Below are positions 5,985 through 55,394 of a DNA stretch of 64,000 nucleotides, one piece after another. The notes beneath the pieces were generated by a model. It had not been told where the DNA came from. It did not search any database and worked only from the letters and a program-made list of their open reading frames with translations. A program made the position numbers and the translations under genes. Source of the stretch: Branchiostoma floridae (taxonomy: Eukaryota; Chordata; Leptocardii; Amphioxiformes; Branchiostomatidae); the NCBI RefSeq assembly GCF_000003815.2, contig NC_049989.1:16543702-16607701 (forward strand). The letters are read 5' to 3'. The stretch's first letter is position 1, and each line of letters begins with the position of its first letter.

Positions 5985-8900
5985 CTACCACCAATCCTGC
6001 AAGGGTTTGTTTGTGTTGATTTTTGTCCGGATCCAATTGACAATGTGTGTTTTGAAAATGGAAGGTGAGGTTGCTTTCATTTGCGGTGGGAAAGTGTTAT
6101 ATGACTTGGTGCATCTATACAAGAAGGTCCTTGTCAAGGCCGCAGTTCTTGGCTTAGGTAATCTAAAACCACCACTTGTCGCAAGACGAGTGCTGTGCTC
6201 ATGTCTGCTACTAATGTTTTCTAATCTGCTATACATAGCTCTAGGTTCCTTAGATACTAATAGCTTGTTGAACATAGAAAGAGTGGCTGTGTACAATCTT
6301 TCTTTAACTGTTGGCCATTGTAGTTTACTATGCATATAATCAATGTTCTCATTATAGCGCGCATTAAGAATTAGTCTAGCTGCCCTATTTTGCAGAATCT
6401 GTAGCTTGTTCAAGGAGGTCTGAGGGCAGGCAGATAACAAGCAAGCACAATAATCCAGATGGGATAACACTAGTGCCTGCGTCACCATCTTTAGCGGTCC
6501 ATCCACAATCAGATGTCTAGATCTCTTAAGCATTGCTAGTGAACCAGTCATCCTATTCAGGACTTTGTCTGCTTGCTGTGTCCATGTTAAGTACTGATCT
6601 ATAATGAAACCAAGTAGTTTTGCTTGAAATACTTGTTCAATCCTTTTGCCATTCAAAGAAAGCTGTAACTCTGGGTTGCTCCTTAATCTGTGGCGACTTC
6701 CCATCAAAATCGATTTTGTTTTCTCCACATTTAATACTAGTTTGTTTGCTTGTACCCAGTCCCATATATGGTTAAGTTCGGCCTGAAGTGTGTTTTGTAT
6801 CATAGAGACATTTGGGCCAGAAGCGGAAGGAGTGGAATCATCAGCATACAACTCTATGTTACAGTGAGTTATAGCAGTGGGTAAATCATTGGTATATATA
6901 CAAAAAAGTAATGGCCCCAAGCAACTCCCCTGTGGAACACCACTTAAGCATTTCCTGTGTGATGAGACTCCACCGTTAACACTGACAGCCTGTGTTCTAT
7001 CTGTCAGATAGCTGTTGACCCAGTTGACGGCCGATTCGACAAACCCGTAGCTCTTTAGTTTGGCTAACAACACCTTGTGGTTTACCACGTCAAAGGCGGC
7101 GCTGAAATCCAAGAGCACTGCACCTACAAGATTGCCTTTGTCTACTTCCTCTCGCCATCTGTCTGTCATTTGCACAAGAGCACTAGCAGTGGAGTGATGC
7201 ATTTTGTATGCATGCTGGCGATCGGACAGAATGTTATTAGAGACTAAGTATGACTGGATTTGGTCTTTACATATTTTCTCCATTAATTTACTTATTGCTG
7301 GTAGGAGACTGATGGGACGGCTATTTGGACCATTTAAGGGAAGGGCTTTGTTTTTTATTAGCGGAAGTACCTTAGCACTTTTCCACTGTGTGGGGAAAAT
7401 CTCCTGTTCAATAGAACTGTTGAATATGTGGCACAAAGGGGTAGCTATGTGGTCGGCAGATATGTGTAGTAATGTATTGTCGATATTGTCAAAACCTGTT
7501 GAATAACACTGGGGAAGATATATTAAAAGCTCATGGACATAGTGCACAGTTACTCTTTGAAAAGAGAAGGAGCATTCGTTGGATTTCATAATGTACTTGT
7601 CAATTGGTGCAGTTACTCTTGTAATATCTGGCTCATCTCCCTGAGTAAGCCGCAACACTTTGTTTACAAAATACTCATTAAAGTGATCGGCAATGTCCTT
7701 AGGCTTAGTCAAAATTTTACCATTTGTCTCAATAAATTTAGGTGTATCACATGTGCTTCTGCCTAGTATTCCATTTATCACCCTCCATAGTTTCTTGGTG
7801 TCACCATTACAACTATGTGTGTCAAGTAATTCTCTGTAATGTGCTTTCTTTTTCTTTCTGTTTTCCCTCACAACAACATTTCTCAGTCTCTTGTACACCA
7901 TGTAATCGGATGAAAGACCTGATGCCAGTGCTTCCTTTTTTGCATCATCCCTTAGTGTCATCAGTTCTCGGAGGTCACCGTCGACCCACTGGGCTGGCGA
8001 TGACCTCACGGTGGACTTCCGAACAGGGGCGTGCTCATCCACAACTTGTGTGAACAAAGTCATGAAGCAATGTAGTGCATCGTTTACATCCTGCTCATTA
8101 CTTACAAGGTGCCATGGGACTTCTGAAATGTCTTGTAGGAATTTTAGTTGATTGAACTTTTTGTATGATCGTTTGTGAGTGATGGTCGGCTGTCCTTTAG
8201 GAGGTTTTGTCTTCCTAGTTATATACACCAGGTTGTGATCAGTGCACCCTAATGGACTAGATTTAGCACATGTGAATAAGTCTGGTCTGTTTGTGAATAG
8301 CAGATCTATACAAGATGATGTTTCAGTGCCATTAACGTTTGTGCAAATTCTAGTTGGATCTTTCACCATTTGTGTTAAGTTGAGTGAAGACAGTTCTAAG
8401 TTAAGTCTTTGTTTCATTGTACATGTATCACTTGACCAATCGATATTAAAGTCCCCTAAAATCATGACTTCCTTGTCCCCGTTAGATACTGTTTTCTATG
8501 ATTGCACANNNNNNNNNNNNNNNNNNNNNNNNNNNNNNNNNNNNNNNNNNNNNNNNNNNNNNNNNNNNNNNNNNNNNNNNNNNNNNNNNNNNNNNNNNNN
8601 NNNNNNNNTCTGATATTGCCAGACATGGAAATTGTTATCATGTAGTAACTGAGATATCTCCTGTGTTTTATTACGCAGACTGTTTATATTCACGTGTCCC
8701 ACATGTAGCCCTTTACACGGTAAGGTGACATTAGGACCTGGATTGGTCTGTATGTCGCCTGACATTAACAGGGTGAGTACGGCTAACAGTAAACTCGGGT
8801 CTGAGGTACCTCCAGTACTGTGTTTTCTTGACTGCGTCACCAGTTGGATGCTGCTGACTGCGAGAGATCCACCCATACCCAGAGACACGGGACGATCAGG

Positions 8901-21800: not shown

Positions 21801-24800
21801 TATAGTTGTTTGTGCAGAATCGGGCAGCTTTTCTTCCTGAATGTACACATTTCTGTTCAAGTAAGACTTGGTGACCATAACCAAGACTTGGCCCATACAT
21901 CTTAAATGTATGGAATAAGATTTAAGAAACCGGAACATACAAAGAGTTTTATGTTTCCCAGTTCCACAGGAGCTGATGTATGCCGCCATGCTGGGTGATA
22001 AGATCTTAACTTGTACGTAACATAGATAAAACCAAACATCATCTCAAGGCCATAGCAAGTAAATTTTATGGATGACATCCTCTACAGACTGCAAAAATAG
22101 TGCGATAGGGCGAAAAAAAACAAGATGGGTACAAAAAAACAAGATGGTTATAGGCCCTATAAACGTTGTAACAAGAATTTAAGGGGCAAAATATGACCAT
22201 GGTATCACAGCCAACAAGACATTCATCCCTGTATTCAAGACATGTACTGGAGTAGTGAAAGTGACCCTAGTGTGGTAGACTGGTATCACGAACAAAGCTG
22301 CTAACTACACTTATGGCTTCCAAATTGGTGCCACTTTTATAACTATCCAACAAGTTTCATTTCTACAACTGCAGGTATCTCACAAGTGTCACTTTTACAA
22401 GTAATTATAAGGCTACAGCACAACATATTTGCTCATTTTGGTAATTTTTCGTCATGTTGACCATCTCCAAAGAAGAAGAAAAAATCTTGTTTTTTTTCTG
22501 AAATCAGCGAAAATTAATGAGCGCGCGGATGTCATCCATAAAATTTACTTGCTGTGGCCTAATGAAGACGTCTCTTTTAATCAAAAAGACAAACTTTGAT
22601 AACTATGTGATGACGTTACCTACAGAATGAGAAGACAGCAGAAGAGATTGCAGCAATTAAGAAAGCGCAGAAGCTGTTCCAGTCTTCCAAAGTAAGCCAT
22701 GGCCAAACAAAGTAAATCTTTTCATATACTTTCTGCTTAAAACATCACGTGAAATTTTACACTTTTTTAAAATGATATTAACGCTGTGTTCTGCAGGGTA
22801 AGATCCGGACAGACGAAGGTTGAAACAGCACAACGTTTGGTGAGACGTATCTTTTCAGTGAACACGTGTTTTTATGAAATATGGCACAGATCTTGTTTTG
22901 TAATTTCTGTTTCAATGTCGGCCTGTCTGTTATTCTGTTATCATCGGAACTCTGCATTTCTCATAATTTCTGTGACTCACACATTGTTTAACAAATAATA
23001 GTTACTAAACGTGAAATGGCATGAGATAATTTGCATTGTACATATATATATATAGAGAGAGAGAGACTTTATGTATATATTGAAAGCACGGTCTGTAGAT
23101 ATTGTAGCATAGGGCCCACGGCCTAAGAAATGTGAAATATATATATATTTGTGTACAATACATATATATATATTATTCATGTATATCAGGACATCAGTAA
23201 AGTTTATCTTTTGTCATTGTATGGTGAATCATGTCCCTGCATAAGCTATGTAAACAGGAATGCATTTTGCATTCAGTGTATTCTGTGTTGTGCAAGTAAG
23301 TGAACACCTTTCTTTGAGTTGTTTATGTAAGCTGTAGTATCTATTCATGTTACCTCTTTAACACTTTATTGCATAGAAGTCTGTAATAATGCTTCAAAGC
23401 GATATATTTTAAACTTTTTTTAGCTCTCCAGCCAAATGTGATGGATGGCTTGCTCGCTATACACCTCATCGCCAAAGACCTGACCTCCGTCCCAGCCGAG
23501 GTGTTTAAAAACAGGGATATCGAATGCCTTGTCCTGTCTACCAACAGGCTGACGAGCATACCCGAGGAGATAGGTCAACTACAGAAGCTCCAGGTTCTTA
23601 AACTTAACAACAACCTGCTGACAGAACTGCCGCAAGCAATCACGACGCTACCTAACCTAAAGCACGTTGACCTGTCAAAGAACAGCATTGACACACTGCC
23701 TAGTGGATTCTCAACATTAGACATATACGAACTCCACATGCACAACAATAGGTTCAAAGAGATACCAGAAGAAATTTGTTCACTACTACAGCTGAAAACC
23801 TTTTCTGTGGCAAGCAACCCCCTCAAGTGTCTCCCTGACAAAATATCCCAGCTTACAGGATTGAGAAACATGCACATCGGCAGATGTCAGTTGAAAGAGT
23901 TCCCCAGACAGGTGCTGCAGCTGGAGGGTCTACAGAGGCTATACATGGGGGCCTGGGCTGGGGAGGGCAAACAGTCACCTGTACCTGAAGATATCGGCAG
24001 ACTGAAGAACCTACAAGTCTTGGATCTGCAGAATAGTGGCTTGGCGTCATTACCGGATAGTGTTAGGGAACTGGTGCAGCTGACGTACTTAAACATCTCC
24101 GCAAACAAATTCACATCTGTTCCTGACTCAATTATGAACCTGCGCAATATCGAGAAGCTAGAATTGTCACATAACAGAATTTCCCGCCTTCCCCTGACTC
24201 TTTGCCGATTGGCCAAACTAAAGGGTGTGGGCATCTCTGGAAACCCCCTGACATACCCTCCTCCTGATGTATGTAAGAAAGGTACTGCCGACGTCACCGA
24301 CGTCATGGACTTCATGAGAAGACAGTTGAAGGAAAAAGAGGATGGTATGTTATAAGATTTTCTGGAGAAAAATTTAATAAAGGATAAATCAATTAGAAAG
24401 ACGTACAAATTGTATAAGATACCATGTATGTGCCCCAACAGCATTTGTAGCTTTTCGATTATGTAGCACCAGTAGTTATGATCTGGCTCATTATAGAGAT
24501 GACTCAATATAGACATGATTCGGTATGAAACTGTGAGTGATAAACATGTTTACAAGTCGCAGATGTGGGTGTGGTGTAGATAAGGTAATGCAAATTTATT
24601 TCAAATGAAATTTTCAATGCAGGCTAAAAATGTATTAATCAGTCATATTGATGTTTCAGAGAAAGAACTAAGGAAATGCTTCCATCGTTTCTCGCAAAAC
24701 GTGACTGAAACACGCGAGGTGGAAGATCTGGGTGTTGCACTTGGACTTGCAGCAGATGAGATGACGTCCATTATCCAAGTAAATATTTTTAGTCACTTGT

Positions 24801-26971
24801 ATTAACATTTGGAAACGTTTTGCATAAAGCAGTAATGTGGTATACGCAAACTCTCAGAACAGTCATTTGCGCCTGTAAGAATTTTGAATTGTTTTTGCTT
24901 AGCCTATTACGTTTTATGACTACATACGTGTGTCACAGCATGCAATGTTAACCCTTCCACTTTAAGGGTTCAAACAACCAAACCCCGAGTTACCAGGCCT
25001 ATAACATGCTGTTGAAGTGGATGGAGAAAGACCCAGAAGCGTCCATGGACAAGCTTCGGCAGGAGCTGAGTGACTTTGGCATGGACACGCTAACAGAGGA
25101 CGTTGGCAGGATCAAGGTATACGCAAAAAGTTGTTTTCAAGGTCTAAAAAGTAAGTTTGATATAAAAGTCTGTATTTTTCAACTATAGCTGATACGTTTC
25201 ACCTAACGGTGGAATTTGTTTTTAAAGGTTCAACCAGGTAAGCGACCGACAGATACAACAGTTGGACCGGTAGCCAAGCGATCAGCAGCCGGAGAGTCTT
25301 CTTTTGGCCGGCATCAGGAGGAGCAGCTGACACAGCTACTAGAGGAAAACCGCACTTTGAGAGCCCTGGTGGAAGAACTACAAGGAAAGACGCCAAGAAG
25401 TCGAGGTGAGTTTGTTGGATATGAATGCTACCTCGCAAAGGCACCTTGCTTTCTGCTTTACTTCAGTACATAGGTAATGCTATCAAAATAAATGAAATAT
25501 CGATTGATAGAGAAGGGGAATAACAAAAATTTGCAAACAGCTTCCAACTAACCTAGTTAGAGAGCTTAGCTACTGTCAATATTAACATGTGATGCGTTTG
25601 AAGTGTTACAGATAATAAGTCGAAGTTCTAACTAAATTTACACAGCTCTCTGCAGCTTGTATCTAAGAAGTCTTAAGATATAAATGGTGGTTAAGGTTTC
25701 ATAAAGGTTTCGGCGTCCATACCAATACAAAACATTTAAAAAAATACGGTCAACATTTCTATCCTCCTTTATTCAACTTGCCAGGACCTGGAGCCAAGCC
25801 TGTGGTGTTGCTGCTCAACGATGAGTATGGAACTGCAAAGGGGGGCATATCCACTGTCCACTGCCAGATGGCGGTCCTACTGGCTTCCAATGGTGCAGAG
25901 GTCTATTCTACAGTCCTGAGTGCCACAGAAGACGATGAGAAGGATGCAGCTACTAATGGGGTTAAGCTGATCTTTCCAACAACATCCGAGCGAGACAAGA
26001 GAGAGCCCTGCCTTGATTGGCTGACCTTTGACCATAAGGCTCGTTACCCAGACCTCCCTCCAGTAGACTTCATTGTTGGCCACGTGCCCATCACAAGCCA
26101 TGCAGCAAGGCAGATCAAGGAGCAACGATTTCCTGACGCCAAACTCGTCCAAGTCACTCACGTGATGCCAGAAGACACCAACCAGTACAAGAGTGATGAG
26201 AGGGTGTTGAGCATCGGCGACGAGCAGAAAAACATTCTTGAAGACCTAGAACATGCTGACGTGATTATCTCGGTAGGCCCATACTTGCACGACTACTACA
26301 AGCATGAGACGAGAGATTTCGAACCTCACTTTGAGTTCCTGCCTAAGCCATCCGACATCTTCAGCACAGCAAAGGTCAAATACGTCGATGCCGGCGTTAA
26401 AGTAGTGTTGTCCATCGGCAGGGTCAAGGGTGTGGAGAGGCTGAAAGGCTACGACCTGGCTGCAAAGTCCGTGGGCAAGGTGATCGTAGCACTACCCAAC
26501 ACTAAATGGCGAGCCCGCGGCATCTGTGCTGATGATTTCCAGGAGAGCAGGGACATCATCCAGGCCAACGCGGGTAACATCCATTTCACCCCCCTGAAGT
26601 ACGGCACACAGGAGGAGCTGCGCAAGGACATGGAAAAGGCAAACGTCGTGCTGATGCCGTCACGTGCAGAGCCATTCGGACTGGTTGGTCTGGAGGCCAT
26701 CGCTGCAGGAGTGCCCGTCCTGGTTTCCCACAAGTCTGGTCTTGCAAAGTTTCTGACGAAACAAGACCCCGAGTTTGACCGCACGATCGTAGAGATCGAA
26801 GATGATGACGATGAGGCCGCCAAAACCCTGGCCAAGCGCATAATCAAGATCCTGACGGATGGACACAGAGAGTTTCAGGCCGCACAAAGGTTAAAGGAGA
26901 GGCTTTTGGCCTCAAAGTACTGGGCTGTTTCACACACCAGTTTCCTCGAAACCTTTGGTCTGGAAGGCTAG
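18769..26971 (+). CDS. LRR - Death-like domain - coiled coil - GT4 glycosyltransferase fusion
   Basis: Firm exons: 23424 or 23432 to 24344, 24660-24778, 24967-25116, 25228-25405 and 25785-26971; from ATG 23441 they encode 845 residues. Residues 4-290 are 12 cytoplasmic-type 23-residue LRRs (LTSIPEEIGQLQKLQVLKL). Residues 302-391 form a Death-fold region (ELRKCFHRFSQ...MLLKWMEKDP...LRQELSDFGM). Residues 392-450 include a coiled coil (EEQLTQLLEENRTLRALVEEL). Residues 451-845, one exon, are a GT-B glycosyltransferase resembling family 4: GTAKGGISTVH nucleotide-sugar loop, SIGRVKGVERLKGYD, and the E-x7-E donor motif EPFGLVGLE (E746, E754). Candidate 5' exons are 18769-18824, 22626-22691 and 22797-22839. 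Joined to the acceptor at 23432 they keep one open frame from ATG 18769 (903 residues, basic N-terminus). No signal peptide, so cytosolic. A sensor/adaptor/effector role in innate immunity is inference; the sugar acceptor is unknown. Confidence 0.85.
19075..19485 (-). mobile_element. SINE-1 with internal 59-bp triplication
   Basis: Starts on the left with a (TTATTG)n tail and GGGTGGGCCGACTACTC. Runs through the shared CAGGGGCTGAATTGCGAGGAG, AATTGCCCCAGGTGCGGCC and TGGCGGGTTCTTTAACGTGCC blocks to TCCGAGGGACG. A 59-bp unit beginning GTCTGGAGCGAGCTGCCATT is repeated at 19173, 19232 and 19291. The tRNA-like head is missing. It lies in the proposed first intron of the LRR-Death-GT gene. Confidence 0.78.
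19925..20345. repeat. Diverged ~222-bp direct duplication
   Basis: CAGCTTTAAGGATGGCCCG (about 19951) and TAGCTTTAGGGATGCCCG (about 20176) head two similar stretches. Each continues through TTTTATGTTGTTCTTTAAT-like, AAAAGAGC and GCACCYRTGAC-like phrases. It is intronic and non-coding. Confidence 0.6.
20346..21447. other. Intronic DNA, no recognised feature
   Basis: Lies between the duplication and the LINE-Y fragment in the proposed first intron. Small ORFs only, none with a recognisable domain. Confidence 0.4.
21448..22000 (-). pseudogene. LINE-Y 3' fragment (RT C-terminal tail)
   Basis: The minus-strand ORF 21448-21900 reads KAARFCTNNYNKDSSVT, then LEDRRKMSRLSMTYKMTNKLVDVP and YFPRTIVLWNLLSP, the tail found after RT in Jockey/CR1-type LINEs. 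A second frame (21774-21989) carries the preceding part, so there is a frameshift. A related plus-strand copy lies at 55395-55745. Dead and 5'-truncated. Confidence 0.8.
22047..22560. mobile_element. MITE family B, 33-bp TIRs
   Basis: Left AGGCCATAGCAAGTAAATTT and right AAATTTACTTGCTGTGGCCT, each continued by ATGGATGACATCC or its complement, are terminal inverted repeats. Other copies: 32197-32616 and 37015-37698. A related group with TGTTGATTTGATTATAT ends lies at 44155, 46853 and 47462. No transposase ORF. Confidence 0.85.
23038..23180. repeat. (TA)n/(GA)n microsatellites
   Basis: TATATA...GAGAGAGAGAG at about 23042-23067 and TATATATATATT at 23138-23174, in the intron before the LRR exon. 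Confidence 0.9.
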
Positions 26972-35044: not shown

Positions 35045-36121
35045 TCATATACTTGCAATGTGTGGTGAGTTCTGCATCCTCTGTCTCCTGTTACGCTCCG
35101 TGGTTACCACTGCTGCCACCACTGCCACAACTACCGTTATTGTGATCACGAGAATGGTCACAGTCTCGGCTACGCAGAAATTCGTCCCCAGAGCTTTCAG
35201 TGTCACGTTTCGTACCTCCCCCGGCTTGTGACAGGCAAGCTCCTCGTATCGGACAATATGCAAATTTTTCGTCAAATGTATCTTGTTAAACGTCCTTTGT
35301 AAGTCGCAATCACAGTGCCAAGGGTTAGAGTCCAGGTAAAGGTTCGTGTACCTGCTCTTGATGTTACGAAACGTTTCAAACTTCACGGAAGACAGCTGGT
35401 TCACGTCCAAGTTTAAGGACCTCAATGTTCTTAAGTCCTTGAAGGAAGACGGCGACATTTTGGTGATCCTGTTGCCAGTAAGCAGCACGTGTTCAACGTC
35501 CAAGCTTCCGCTAAATATCCCGTCTTCCATAGCACTTAATTTGTTGTACTCAAGGTGTACGAACTTAAGGCTATGCAGATGGGCGAATGTCAAACTGTTA
35601 AGTGTCGATATATTATTCCTGTCTAGGTATAGAGTTTGTAAGGAGTAAAGGTCCTCTTCGTTTAAGAAACCAAGCTTTCTGAGAGAATTGTAAGACAGTC
35701 TTAGGTCCTGGAGGTTGATGAGACCGCGGAAGACTCCCTTTCTTAGGAATGTCAAGGAGTTCCACTGCAGGTTAAGAACTCTCAACTCTCGCATATTCTC
35801 GAAGGCCAACTCTGCGATGTCAGAGATGTGGTTGCGGTCGAGCGTGAGATAATGCAGTCGACGGAATCTCTCAAAGGACTGAGTGGTTATTCTTGTCAGG
35901 TTGTTGTTTCCGAGGTTGATGTAATCCACGTCGGCGCCCATTCCGCCAGGTACGTTGGTGAAGCCTTTCTCCCGGCAGTTGACGAACCCCGAGACCGCGT
36001 TGCAGGCGCACTGGTTCGGGCACAAGCAGAGGGTCGGCCCGACCATGAGGAGAAAGATGTGCACGAGCTGCAAGATTATGATCATGTCCTCTGGTGATTC
36101 CAATGTCAGACAGCCGTACAT
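35045..36121 (-). CDS. Single-exon transmembrane LRR receptor
   Basis: 358 codons without introns. Met13 (36085) gives a better signal peptide (MIIILQLVHIFLLMVGPTL) than Met1. It is followed by an LRRNT cap (CPNQCACN...FVNC), eight extracellular 24-residue LRRs (LHYLTLDRNHISDIAELAFENM is typical), an LRRCT cap (NPWHCDCDL...C...C), and one membrane helix (TVTILVITITVVVAVVAAVV). A tail of about 18 residues with a basic stop-transfer (ERNRRQR) follows. There is no TIR or other signalling domain, so it would need a partner or act as an adhesion or decoy receptor. The architecture matches the many intronless LRR-only receptors of lancelets and resembles jawless-vertebrate VLRs in layout. Ligand unknown. 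Confidence 0.88.
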   Translation of the reverse strand: MYGCLTLESPEDMIIILQLVHIFLLMVGPTLCLCPNQCACNAVSGFVNCREKGFTNVPGGMGADVDYINLGNNNLTRITTQSFERFRRLHYLTLDRNHISDIAELAFENMRELRVLNLQWNSLTFLRKGVFRGLINLQDLRLSYNSLRKLGFLNEEDLYSLQTLYLDRNNISTLNSLTFAHLHSLKFVHLEYNKLSAMEDGIFSGSLDVEHVLLTGNRITKMSPSSFKDLRTLRSLNLDVNQLSSVKFETFRNIKSRYTNLYLDSNPWHCDCDLQRTFNKIHLTKNLHIVRYEELACHKPGEVRNVTLKALGTNFCVAETVTILVITITVVVAVVAAVVTTERNRRQRMQNSPHIASI

Positions 36122-36184
36122 CCTCCCGGATATTCACAGCTGCCCGGTGGAACTTCCCTGAAACCCAATGAAAAAAAAAATCAC

Positions 36185-53340: not shown

Positions 53341-55020
53341 AATCTTTATTGCATATTCATGCCGGAGGGCTAAATGCACAAAGGGACCACATATGGTCTT
53401 ATGGATGCAGAGGAAAAAAGAAACTAGACTACTACAATGGTTTAAATGGAAAAGGAACTAAGACACTATGTGTTACAATCTCTAATGGCTGCTTCTAACA
53501 TGTTCTTCTCTCCTTTTGAAACACATGGAGACATATTTACATATTGTGTCGATAGCATGATCGTCCTTGCATAACATCAAGTACTTAAACAAGTCTTGTT
53601 TTAACATTTTCTTACAGATATTGTCTATTTGTAAAGTATTAAATAGGGATTGGCGTTCGTATTCATATAATGTACACTCTAGTAAAAAATGTGTCTCGTC
53701 TTCAAGATACAAGTGGTCACAGAATTTACATGTTCTATCATTTAAAGGAGTACGGTTATGCCTGCCGGATTCTATATATAATGGATGGTCACTTATGCGA
53801 AATTTACTCATAGCTCTGTGATGTTCAAAGCTTGAGATGCTAAGATAAGTTTCTCTTTCATATGTCTCTTTGAATGTTTTGTACGTTCTCAATTTGTTTC
53901 CTAGTTTCCTTTTCGTCGAATTGCTTGCAGTTCTGAATGAAATTTTTGGGTGAAGATATCTTTCAACCTTTGCTTTAGTTGATTTAGATGAGTGGGTACC
54001 TTAGAGTGACCGTTTACATACAGGTAGGCAAAGCCGGACTCCTCTAAGAGTTTCCTTACATCAGATAGCCAGCAGGGTGTTTTACGGCGATCTAGTTCCT
54101 GCTGTGTCATATAAGCTTCATATTGAAGACTATCTGTGTGCACTTCGTTTGCTAATCTAAAATAATAACTATACATTCTGCATTGAGCTTCAATCCACAA
54201 GGGGAAACGCCCCAGTTCCGCTCTACTTGCAAAATTACTGGCGTTCCTTCGAACACCTAGGATGTACTTACAGAATTTCAGATGAACGGACTCTATCGGA
54301 GATTTGTCGTTCAATTTGCTATTGCACCATACTTCAGATCCATACAATAGAATCGGTAGGACACATGTGTCGAACAGTTTGCAATGTAAAGATACAGAAG
54401 ATCTAGTTTCTCCTAATGTACTTCTAATACTAAATAATGCTCTTAGGGCCTTCTTTTCTAGATTCTTTACAGCAGTGCTAAATGTACAACCTGCTGTAAA
54501 CGTAATACCTAGGTAACAGTAAGTTGGAACGATGTCTATCCTTTTGTTGTATAAAGAGAAGTTTAAATTAGAAAATAAGTGACCCCTTTTATTGAATACA
54601 ATAATCTTTGTTTTCGCTAGGTTGACTGTTAATTTCCATTTTTGGCAATATCGGCCAAGGGTGTCAATTGCGTTTTGTAGTCCTTGTTGAGTTTCAGATA
54701 ACAAAACAATGTCGTCAGCATAAAATAAGCTGTTCAATTTTGAGCGTTGTAACAGAGGAGCATCTAAGTTTACTGAATCGAGTTCATCTATGAGGTCGCT
54801 GATGTACAAGTTGAATAAGGTGGGACTTAAAACGCACCCTTGTCGGACACCAATTTCAATGGGAAAACTATCGCTAAGGCCTTCCCTAGTTTTGACGCTA
54901 GCTTCGGATCGGTTGTATAGGTCTTTGATTATATCAAAGACTTTGCCTGAAATCCCCCTGGAGAGAAGTTTATACAACAGTCCCTCATGCCAGATTGAAT
55001 CAAAGGCTTTTGACATAGAA
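53341..55020 (-). pseudogene. LINE-X: reverse transcriptase and C-terminal tail, frameshifted
   Basis: Minus strand. From 55020 leftwards: RT motif A (MSKAFDSIWHEGLL), motif B (GVRQGCVLSPTLFNLYISDL), motif C (NSLFYADDIVLL), the thumb region (PTYCYLGITFTAG), ILLYGSEVWCN and VHLKFCKYILGV, up to a stop at 53901. The next ORF (53482-53892) resumes with LRTYKTFKETYERETYL, then NRTPLNDRTCKFC and YLEDETHFLLECTLYEYER. One frameshift near 53900 therefore splits a single protein. The start is cut inside motif A by the (CA)n tract at 55020, so endonuclease and early RT are gone. The 3'UTR ends at 53341 with CCGGCATGAATATGCAATAAAG. Non-functional. Confidence 0.88.
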
Positions 55021-55069
55021 CACACACACACATATATATATGCAAGCACAGACAGACAGACACACACGC

Positions 55070-55112
<43 letters not shown>

Positions 55113-55117
55113 TGCAC
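55020..55117. repeat. (CA)n microsatellite at LINE-X breakpoint
   Basis: CA repeats with TATATATA and GACAGACAGA interruptions lie exactly at the truncated RT motif A. Confidence 0.93.
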
Positions 55118-55394
55118 AGCTATCACCACTGTCTCACTGTACACTACTCCGCAGCTAACAAACCGACAGAAGTTGCAGTATCGCATTACCACAATCCCTG
55201 GAGCCCCTTGATTAGATAAACCCAATCACCCATGGAGGTTACAGTATCGGAAAATCAATTCCATCGTAATCCTGTCGTTTTCTTGGCCCTGATTGGTCAG
55301 AGATAGATGACGCATACGTGATCCTCTGTTCAGATGAGCAGGTGTGTACAGACCTGACAACATCGCTTTTTTTCAGTACAATGCTTACAGCAAA

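Follow-up and report, generated by a model that had tools for sequence, protein, structure and literature searches.

What does an animal protein do that carries leucine-rich repeats (LRRs), a Death domain and a bacterial-type glycosyltransferase on one chain? This question is raised by a gene of the lancelet Branchiostoma floridae, located at positions 23441-26971 of a stretch of 64,000 nucleotides of contig NC_049989.1 that was analysed here as a whole (the window). In it, an intracellular sensor seems to be fused to a death-domain adaptor and to a sugar-transferring enzyme whose family has links to bacterial defence. We consider it reasonably probable that the product is an intracellular protein of the order LRR-Death-coiled coil-GT4 and most likely serves as an immune receptor carrying its own enzymatic effector.

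A five-exon gene with LRRs, a Death domain and a glycosyltransferase

Re-derived from the DNA, the gene is located on the + strand and has five exons with an 845-amino-acid frame that runs from the ATG at 23441 to the TAG at 26969-26971. Its parts are:

23441..24344, + strand: exon 1, LRR domain, residues 1-301 plus one base of codon 302 (Pfam and pattern match)
24660..24778, + strand: exon 2, first half of the Death domain (Pfam on joined exons)
24967..25116, + strand: exon 3, second half of the Death domain (Pfam, joined exons 31.1 bits, E 2.6e-7)
25228..25405, + strand: exon 4, linker and short coiled coil, 178 nucleotides
25785..26971, + strand: exon 5 (last), GT4-conflict glycosyltransferase (PF20706) and stop codon
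25841..25855, + strand: GGIST glycine loop (residue 470; sequence motif and alignment)
26669..26695, + strand: E-x7-E motif EPFGLVGLE (E746, E754), with the two glutamates unchanged throughout the 20 aligned copies

All five exons are open with intact splice sites, the four introns are all of the GT-AG type and their phases (1, 0, 0, 1) agree; these are the same exons that a first-pass annotation of the window had joined into one polypeptide. The gene may start at ATG 23441 or with an upstream exon spliced at 23432, both being possible. The stretch 22626-22691 (phase 0, acceptor 23430-23431) was rejected as such a first exon, since it matches the synphilin-1 alpha-synuclein-binding family instead (21.5 bits, below the cut-off of 27); because of this match it is probably the end of a neighbouring synphilin-like gene.

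The twelve LRRs claimed in the first-pass annotation were recovered, eleven regular ones by pattern and a longer, irregular one at about residues 167-193 by eye. Pfam reports LRR_8 with E 9.5e-27; its residue numbers count one residue before the ATG and are thus one above the numbering from the methionine. The Death domain (PF00531) lies at residues 308-387 and scores 25.9 bits in the whole protein, with a cut-off of 22.6. Exon 2 alone gives no match and exon 3 alone gives 20.1 bits (profile positions 38-82), whereas the two exons joined reach 31.1 bits over positions 1-82 of 86. Because the joined exons outscore each exon alone, the domain is rebuilt across their junction, in agreement with the Death-like region noted earlier. 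A single-sequence structure model of this piece has six helices with a mean pLDDT (predicted local distance difference test) of 48.6, too poor for a fold search. A PDB sequence search with the same piece gave 103 matches, of which the 60 listed are all EF-hand proteins (troponin C, calmodulin or centrin; best E 0.0065); these were taken as chance.

The coiled coil, LTQLLEENRTLRALVEEL, is located at about 25327-25380 in exon 4, where heptads were recognised with a simple script and by visual inspection. Neither NACHT nor NB-ARC is among the 19 Pfam families reported for the protein at E up to 1, and an identity as a NOD-like receptor (NLR) was therefore rejected. The Roc-COR tandem of ROCO proteins is likewise absent by Pfam, and TRADD-N is not reported by Pfam, whose coverage of divergent TRADD-N was not checked.

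An intact GT4-conflict domain under purifying selection

The enzyme domain belongs to the GT4-conflict family (PF20706), which it matches with 261.7 bits (E 1.5e-77, cut-off 26) at residues 460-832 and at profile positions 1-379 of 385. It is thus full-length, as was claimed before. Of the two profiles named in the first-pass annotation, PF00531 is above its cut-off, and PF00534 matches the glycosyltransferase with 55.4 bits but is outscored by GT4-conflict. With GT4-conflict as the best family, a plain metabolic glycosyltransferase was rejected. The glycine loop and the catalytic E-x7-E motif are both intact, with GGIST, E746 and E754 where they had been placed before. Fold comparison gave the GT-B fold of the retaining GT4 type; the fold neighbours are metabolic enzymes, and their list includes the pseudo-glycosyltransferase VldE. 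PADLOC returned no match for this domain.

The GT4 exon is under purifying selection: the ratio of nonsynonymous to synonymous substitution rates (dN/dS) is 0.20 against its nearest relative among the loci read, the GT4 exon of locus L015 (dS 0.89, so a rough value), and 0.19-0.29 in eight of eight hand-picked GT4 pairs.

Related GT4 exons stand behind changing front ends

A PF00534 profile search of the B. floridae genome (513 Mb, 431 contigs) gave 88 matches, some of which belong to other enzymes or are multiple fragments of a single exon, so that the number is not a count of GT4-conflict genes. Many of them are clustered on contigs such as C3, C5, C18 and C19, and the match in the window is the only one on its contig (C11) among the matches listed. 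Twenty stretches were fetched, and 19 contain a GT4-related exon with 42-71% identity to that of the window, two copies being present in L010; in L009 nothing matched the window GT4 at E 0.01. Since the GT4 exon of L028 is interrupted by a stop, this copy entered neither the alignment nor the tree. The alignment comprises 20 copies (the window and 19 others), all of which match GT4-conflict.

An intron of phase 1 precedes the GT4 exon in 21 of 21 copies, window included, with a weak acceptor in both L010 copies. Acceptors were picked by the highest pyrimidine count from -25 to +10, the window counted from the exon start and not from the codon start. These are not 21 independent observations, because the copies are related. 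The single-exon cassette proposed in the first-pass annotation was borne out, with the whole domain in exon 5.

Upstream of the GT4 exons, 28 distinct same-strand open reading frames (ORFs) from 12 loci, chosen by codon score and by eye, were scanned. A Pfam family above cut-off was found in 18 of them, covering 10 of the 19 loci:

L015: LRR, Roc, OTU
L024: LRR, Roc, COR-B, OTU
L025: LRR, Roc, COR-B
L010: COR-A, OTU
L011: DED, OTU
L012: IIGP (111 bits), an IRG-type interferon-inducible GTPase, at 452-1513, about 6 kb from the GT4 exon
L021 and L022: Roc, Death
L023: Death
L027: Roc, COR-A

Roc or COR is thus found above cut-off in L010, L015, L021, L022, L024, L025 and L027; L018 has COR below cut-off only, and L016 has no family over cut-off. 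By eye, TIR-like and ZU5-like stretches can be seen upstream of GT4 in L016 (572-4004), for which Pfam gives no TIR or ZU5 match.

OTU is located directly upstream of GT4 in L010 (7458-8200, + strand), L011, L015 and L024, and the translations contain DGNC and NHY, which we take to be the OTU catalytic motifs. The apparent arrangement is a double-enzyme fusion of an OTU cysteine protease and GT4. Kaur et al. (2021; PMC8195603), who described the GT4-conflict family, do not use the term OTU in their main text.

In the tree, the window groups with L015 (support 100/99) inside a set of seven rows (100/100). The front ends in this set are LRR-Death (window), LRR-Roc-OTU (L015), LRR-Roc-COR-OTU (L024), COR-OTU (L010, with two rows), DED-OTU (L011) and Death (L023). 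Because the upstream domains differ within the set, it seems that GT4 exon and front end have not evolved together as a unit. A tblastn search with the paralog ORFs detected OTU, Roc or Death nowhere else in the window (E 1e-3); the queries had a score of at least 8 and fewer than 700 amino acids, hence lacked the three largest LRR-Roc ORFs, and the test is insensitive, since the Death domain of the window itself also went unlisted.

Bacterial relatives and probable origin of the GT4 exon

A scan of prokaryote genomes gave 32 loci from 173 candidate stretches, eight of which match most of the domain with 26-32% identity; all six that were scanned with Pfam match GT4-conflict. In a metagenome-assembled genome of the Myxococcaceae (L029, 1892-6164), GT4-conflict (9.3e-127) forms the C-terminus of a protein whose N-terminus resembles the helical part of a protein associated with prokaryotic Argonaute (PADLOC Aga_Helical-REase, 9.9e-25), and this frame overlaps a Piwi-domain gene. 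From its sequence the locus looks like an Argonaute system with a glycosyltransferase effector. In Streptomyces sp. B93 (L031, 3987-8846), CATRA-N is followed by GT4-conflict, and the neighbouring gene is of the NB-ARC-like/TPR type (NB-ARC 23.0 bits, marginally below the cut-off of 23.5). GT4-conflict ends proteins of about 1650 amino acids in L030, L033 and L034, the latter two with a NACHT match below cut-off, and stands at the start of a 988-amino-acid frame in L032. A plasmid search gave eight records with 25-30% identity, six of them from rhizobia, and a scan of viral contigs one weak local match from 51 candidate stretches.

The first-pass annotation had proposed a tree against bacterial and metazoan GT4s. 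The tree calculated here covers the bacterial side, with eight bacterial rows and the 20 lancelet rows, and holds no outgroup and no other animals. One branch (100/100) separates the two groups, which fits a single origin of the lancelet GT4 exons; owing to its composition and to the long bacterial branches, of which the program warned, the tree is silent on the direction or date of a transfer. The GT4 exon is a phase-1, 3'-terminal cassette that probably originated in a bacterial conflict system, and within this genome it appears to have been joined to several front ends.

Comparison with known systems

PIDD1 and LRRD1 combine LRRs with a Death domain, PIDD1 with ZU5 domains in between. LRR and Death are common to them and the window gene, but they are not known to have a glycosyltransferase.

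GT4-conflict is described as a potential effector in the conflict systems of bacteria; some animals took it up and expanded it, Acropora to more than 500 GT4 paralogs, and GT4 is also mentioned for CATRA systems (PMC8195603). This membership is in line with the immune or conflict setting and the bacterial type that the first-pass annotation had suggested for the domain. Its remark that GT4 enzymes normally act alone does not apply to this branch, which is an effector family with many GT4 copies here. The text of the same paper reports GT4-TRADD-N-LRR proteins in cephalochordates, hemichordates and cnidarians. They share with the window gene the GT4 family, LRRs with a partner from the death-fold network and the expansion in marine invertebrates; however, the window gene has the reversed order, LRR first and GT4 last, and has a Death domain, with no TRADD-N reported by Pfam. 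Cnidarian proteins with NACHT, LRR and glycosyl transferase (PMC4083563, PMC12314368, PMC8260672), including those of corals, are similar in that a group 1 glycosyl transferase is fused to LRR-bearing or NLR-like immune proteins in many copies, whereas in the window gene no NACHT was found and Death and a coiled coil are present.

Bacterial LRR-AP-GTPase (LRR-Roc-COR) proteins with GT4 as effector (PMC8195603, section 15) resemble it in the LRR front and the C-terminal effector position of GT4, and the sister loci L015, L024 and L025 have LRR and Roc upstream of GT4. The window gene differs in its eukaryotic exons and lack of Roc-COR, and OTU is an addition in two of these three sister loci. 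A sensor is also fused to an effector in the "shortcut" hybrids of amphioxus, LRRs-caspase for example (PMC2575513); in the window gene the effector is a glycosyltransferase and not a caspase.

LRR-Death-GT4 itself was not found in the text passages of PMC8195603 or in the open-access literature searched; Figure 6A and the source data of that paper may show it. Since GT4-conflict is a described effector family with many copies, also here, the combination is a variant of a known theme, and this prior publication makes the observation less surprising. The interest lies in the compact LRR-Death form and in the related GT4 exons behind Roc-COR, OTU, DED and IRG exons.

A probable receptor with its own effector and the alternatives

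As an immune receptor with its own effector, the protein would work as follows. The LRRs would bind or monitor a ligand derived from an invader or from damage, whereupon the protein could assemble, through Death and coiled coil, either with its own kind or with different Death proteins. The retaining GT4 domain might then be switched on by clustering or by relief of autoinhibition and would transfer a sugar. The donor would be a nucleotide-sugar, and the analogy with BshA- and MshA-like neighbours suggests that it may be UDP-GlcNAc or UDP-glucose. The acceptor would be an invader molecule or a host molecule that the invader needs, and the sugar would neutralise or tag it. This is close to the proposal for GT4 in general, namely that it modifies invader molecules or blocks invader-host contacts (PMC8195603, section 15). 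The one open-access literature listing aimed at this point yielded no demonstrated target of GT4-conflict enzymes, Kaur et al. proposing targets only.

Several points weigh against the receptor-effector reading. Sensing, activation and target are purely what we infer, and all four exon junctions are predictions at the DNA level. The Death assignment derives from the profile match, and no Death structure is among the 60 of 103 PDB matches listed. The exact order LRR-Death-coiled coil-GT4 was seen in the window and in none of the other 19 loci; the closest GT4 (L015, 71%) stands behind LRR-Roc and OTU exons, and the two LRR regions share about 31%. The locus domain sets are ORF lists and not exon-by-exon models, so that far-upstream domains may belong to other genes; seven of the 19 loci (L013, L014, L017, L019, L020, L026, L028) lie outside the upstream scan, and 10 of the 28 scanned ORFs have no family over cut-off. 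Finally, the glycine loop is degraded in eight of the 20 aligned copies (the second L010 copy, L013, L014, L017-L020 and L027) and, outside the alignment, in L028; such copies are possibly inactive or decaying.

These degraded loops, together with VldE among the fold neighbours, favour the view that GT4 is a pseudo-enzyme or a lectin-like sensor of a nucleotide-sugar or microbial glycan, with Death as the signalling output. A Death domain usually is an adaptor output. In the window gene, however, both motifs are intact, E-x7-E is invariant in all aligned copies and selection is purifying, and we regard this view as unlikely.

Two adjoining genes, LRR-Death-coiled coil and GT4, might have been wrongly joined, as the junction between them is a prediction from DNA and the nearest GT4 paralog has another front end. 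Yet the GT4 exon has no in-frame ATG before the domain core, so the whole domain could not be made alone and needs an upstream exon. The coiled-coil exon enters in phase 0 and leaves in phase 1, the phase that the GT4 exon requires, and no other ORF that scores as coding lies between them. A wrong join is accordingly quite improbable. We think still less of a decayed or silent family copy: the isolated position on C11 among the matches listed and the stop in L028 would suit it, but the open exons, intact splice sites and low dN/dS against L015 argue against it. That a housekeeping enzyme of sugar metabolism acquired incidental N-terminal domains is hardly credible, for although the fold neighbours are metabolic enzymes, GT4-conflict far outscores PF00534 and the exon is multi-copy with changing immune-type front ends.

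Returning to the receptor with its own effector, a wider version can be put forward tentatively, as possible rather than probable. Lancelets may keep combinatorial receptors inside the cell whose interchangeable effector is a GT4 exon derived from bacteria and shuffled onto LRR-Death, LRR-Roc-COR-OTU, DED-OTU, Roc-COR-Death and IRG-GTPase front ends; these receptors may directly glycosylate molecules of the invader or the host rather than relay a signal via caspases or NF-kB. In OTU-GT4, an animal receptor would then carry two enzyme effectors one after the other. Should the enzyme act on invaders, chordates would possess a direct-acting intracellular immunity based on glycosylation, of a kind that bacterial conflict systems also have. 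The intact active site and the Death domain make this chordate GT4 protein a convenient object for testing what GT4-conflict enzymes modify.

Other features of the window

By eye, a single-frame LRR protein with a C-terminal hydrophobic stretch at 35045-36133 (- strand) resembles a membrane LRR receptor, and the frames at 5985-8495 and 53482-55133 (both - strand) resemble reverse transcriptases of retrotransposons without long terminal repeats (non-LTR).
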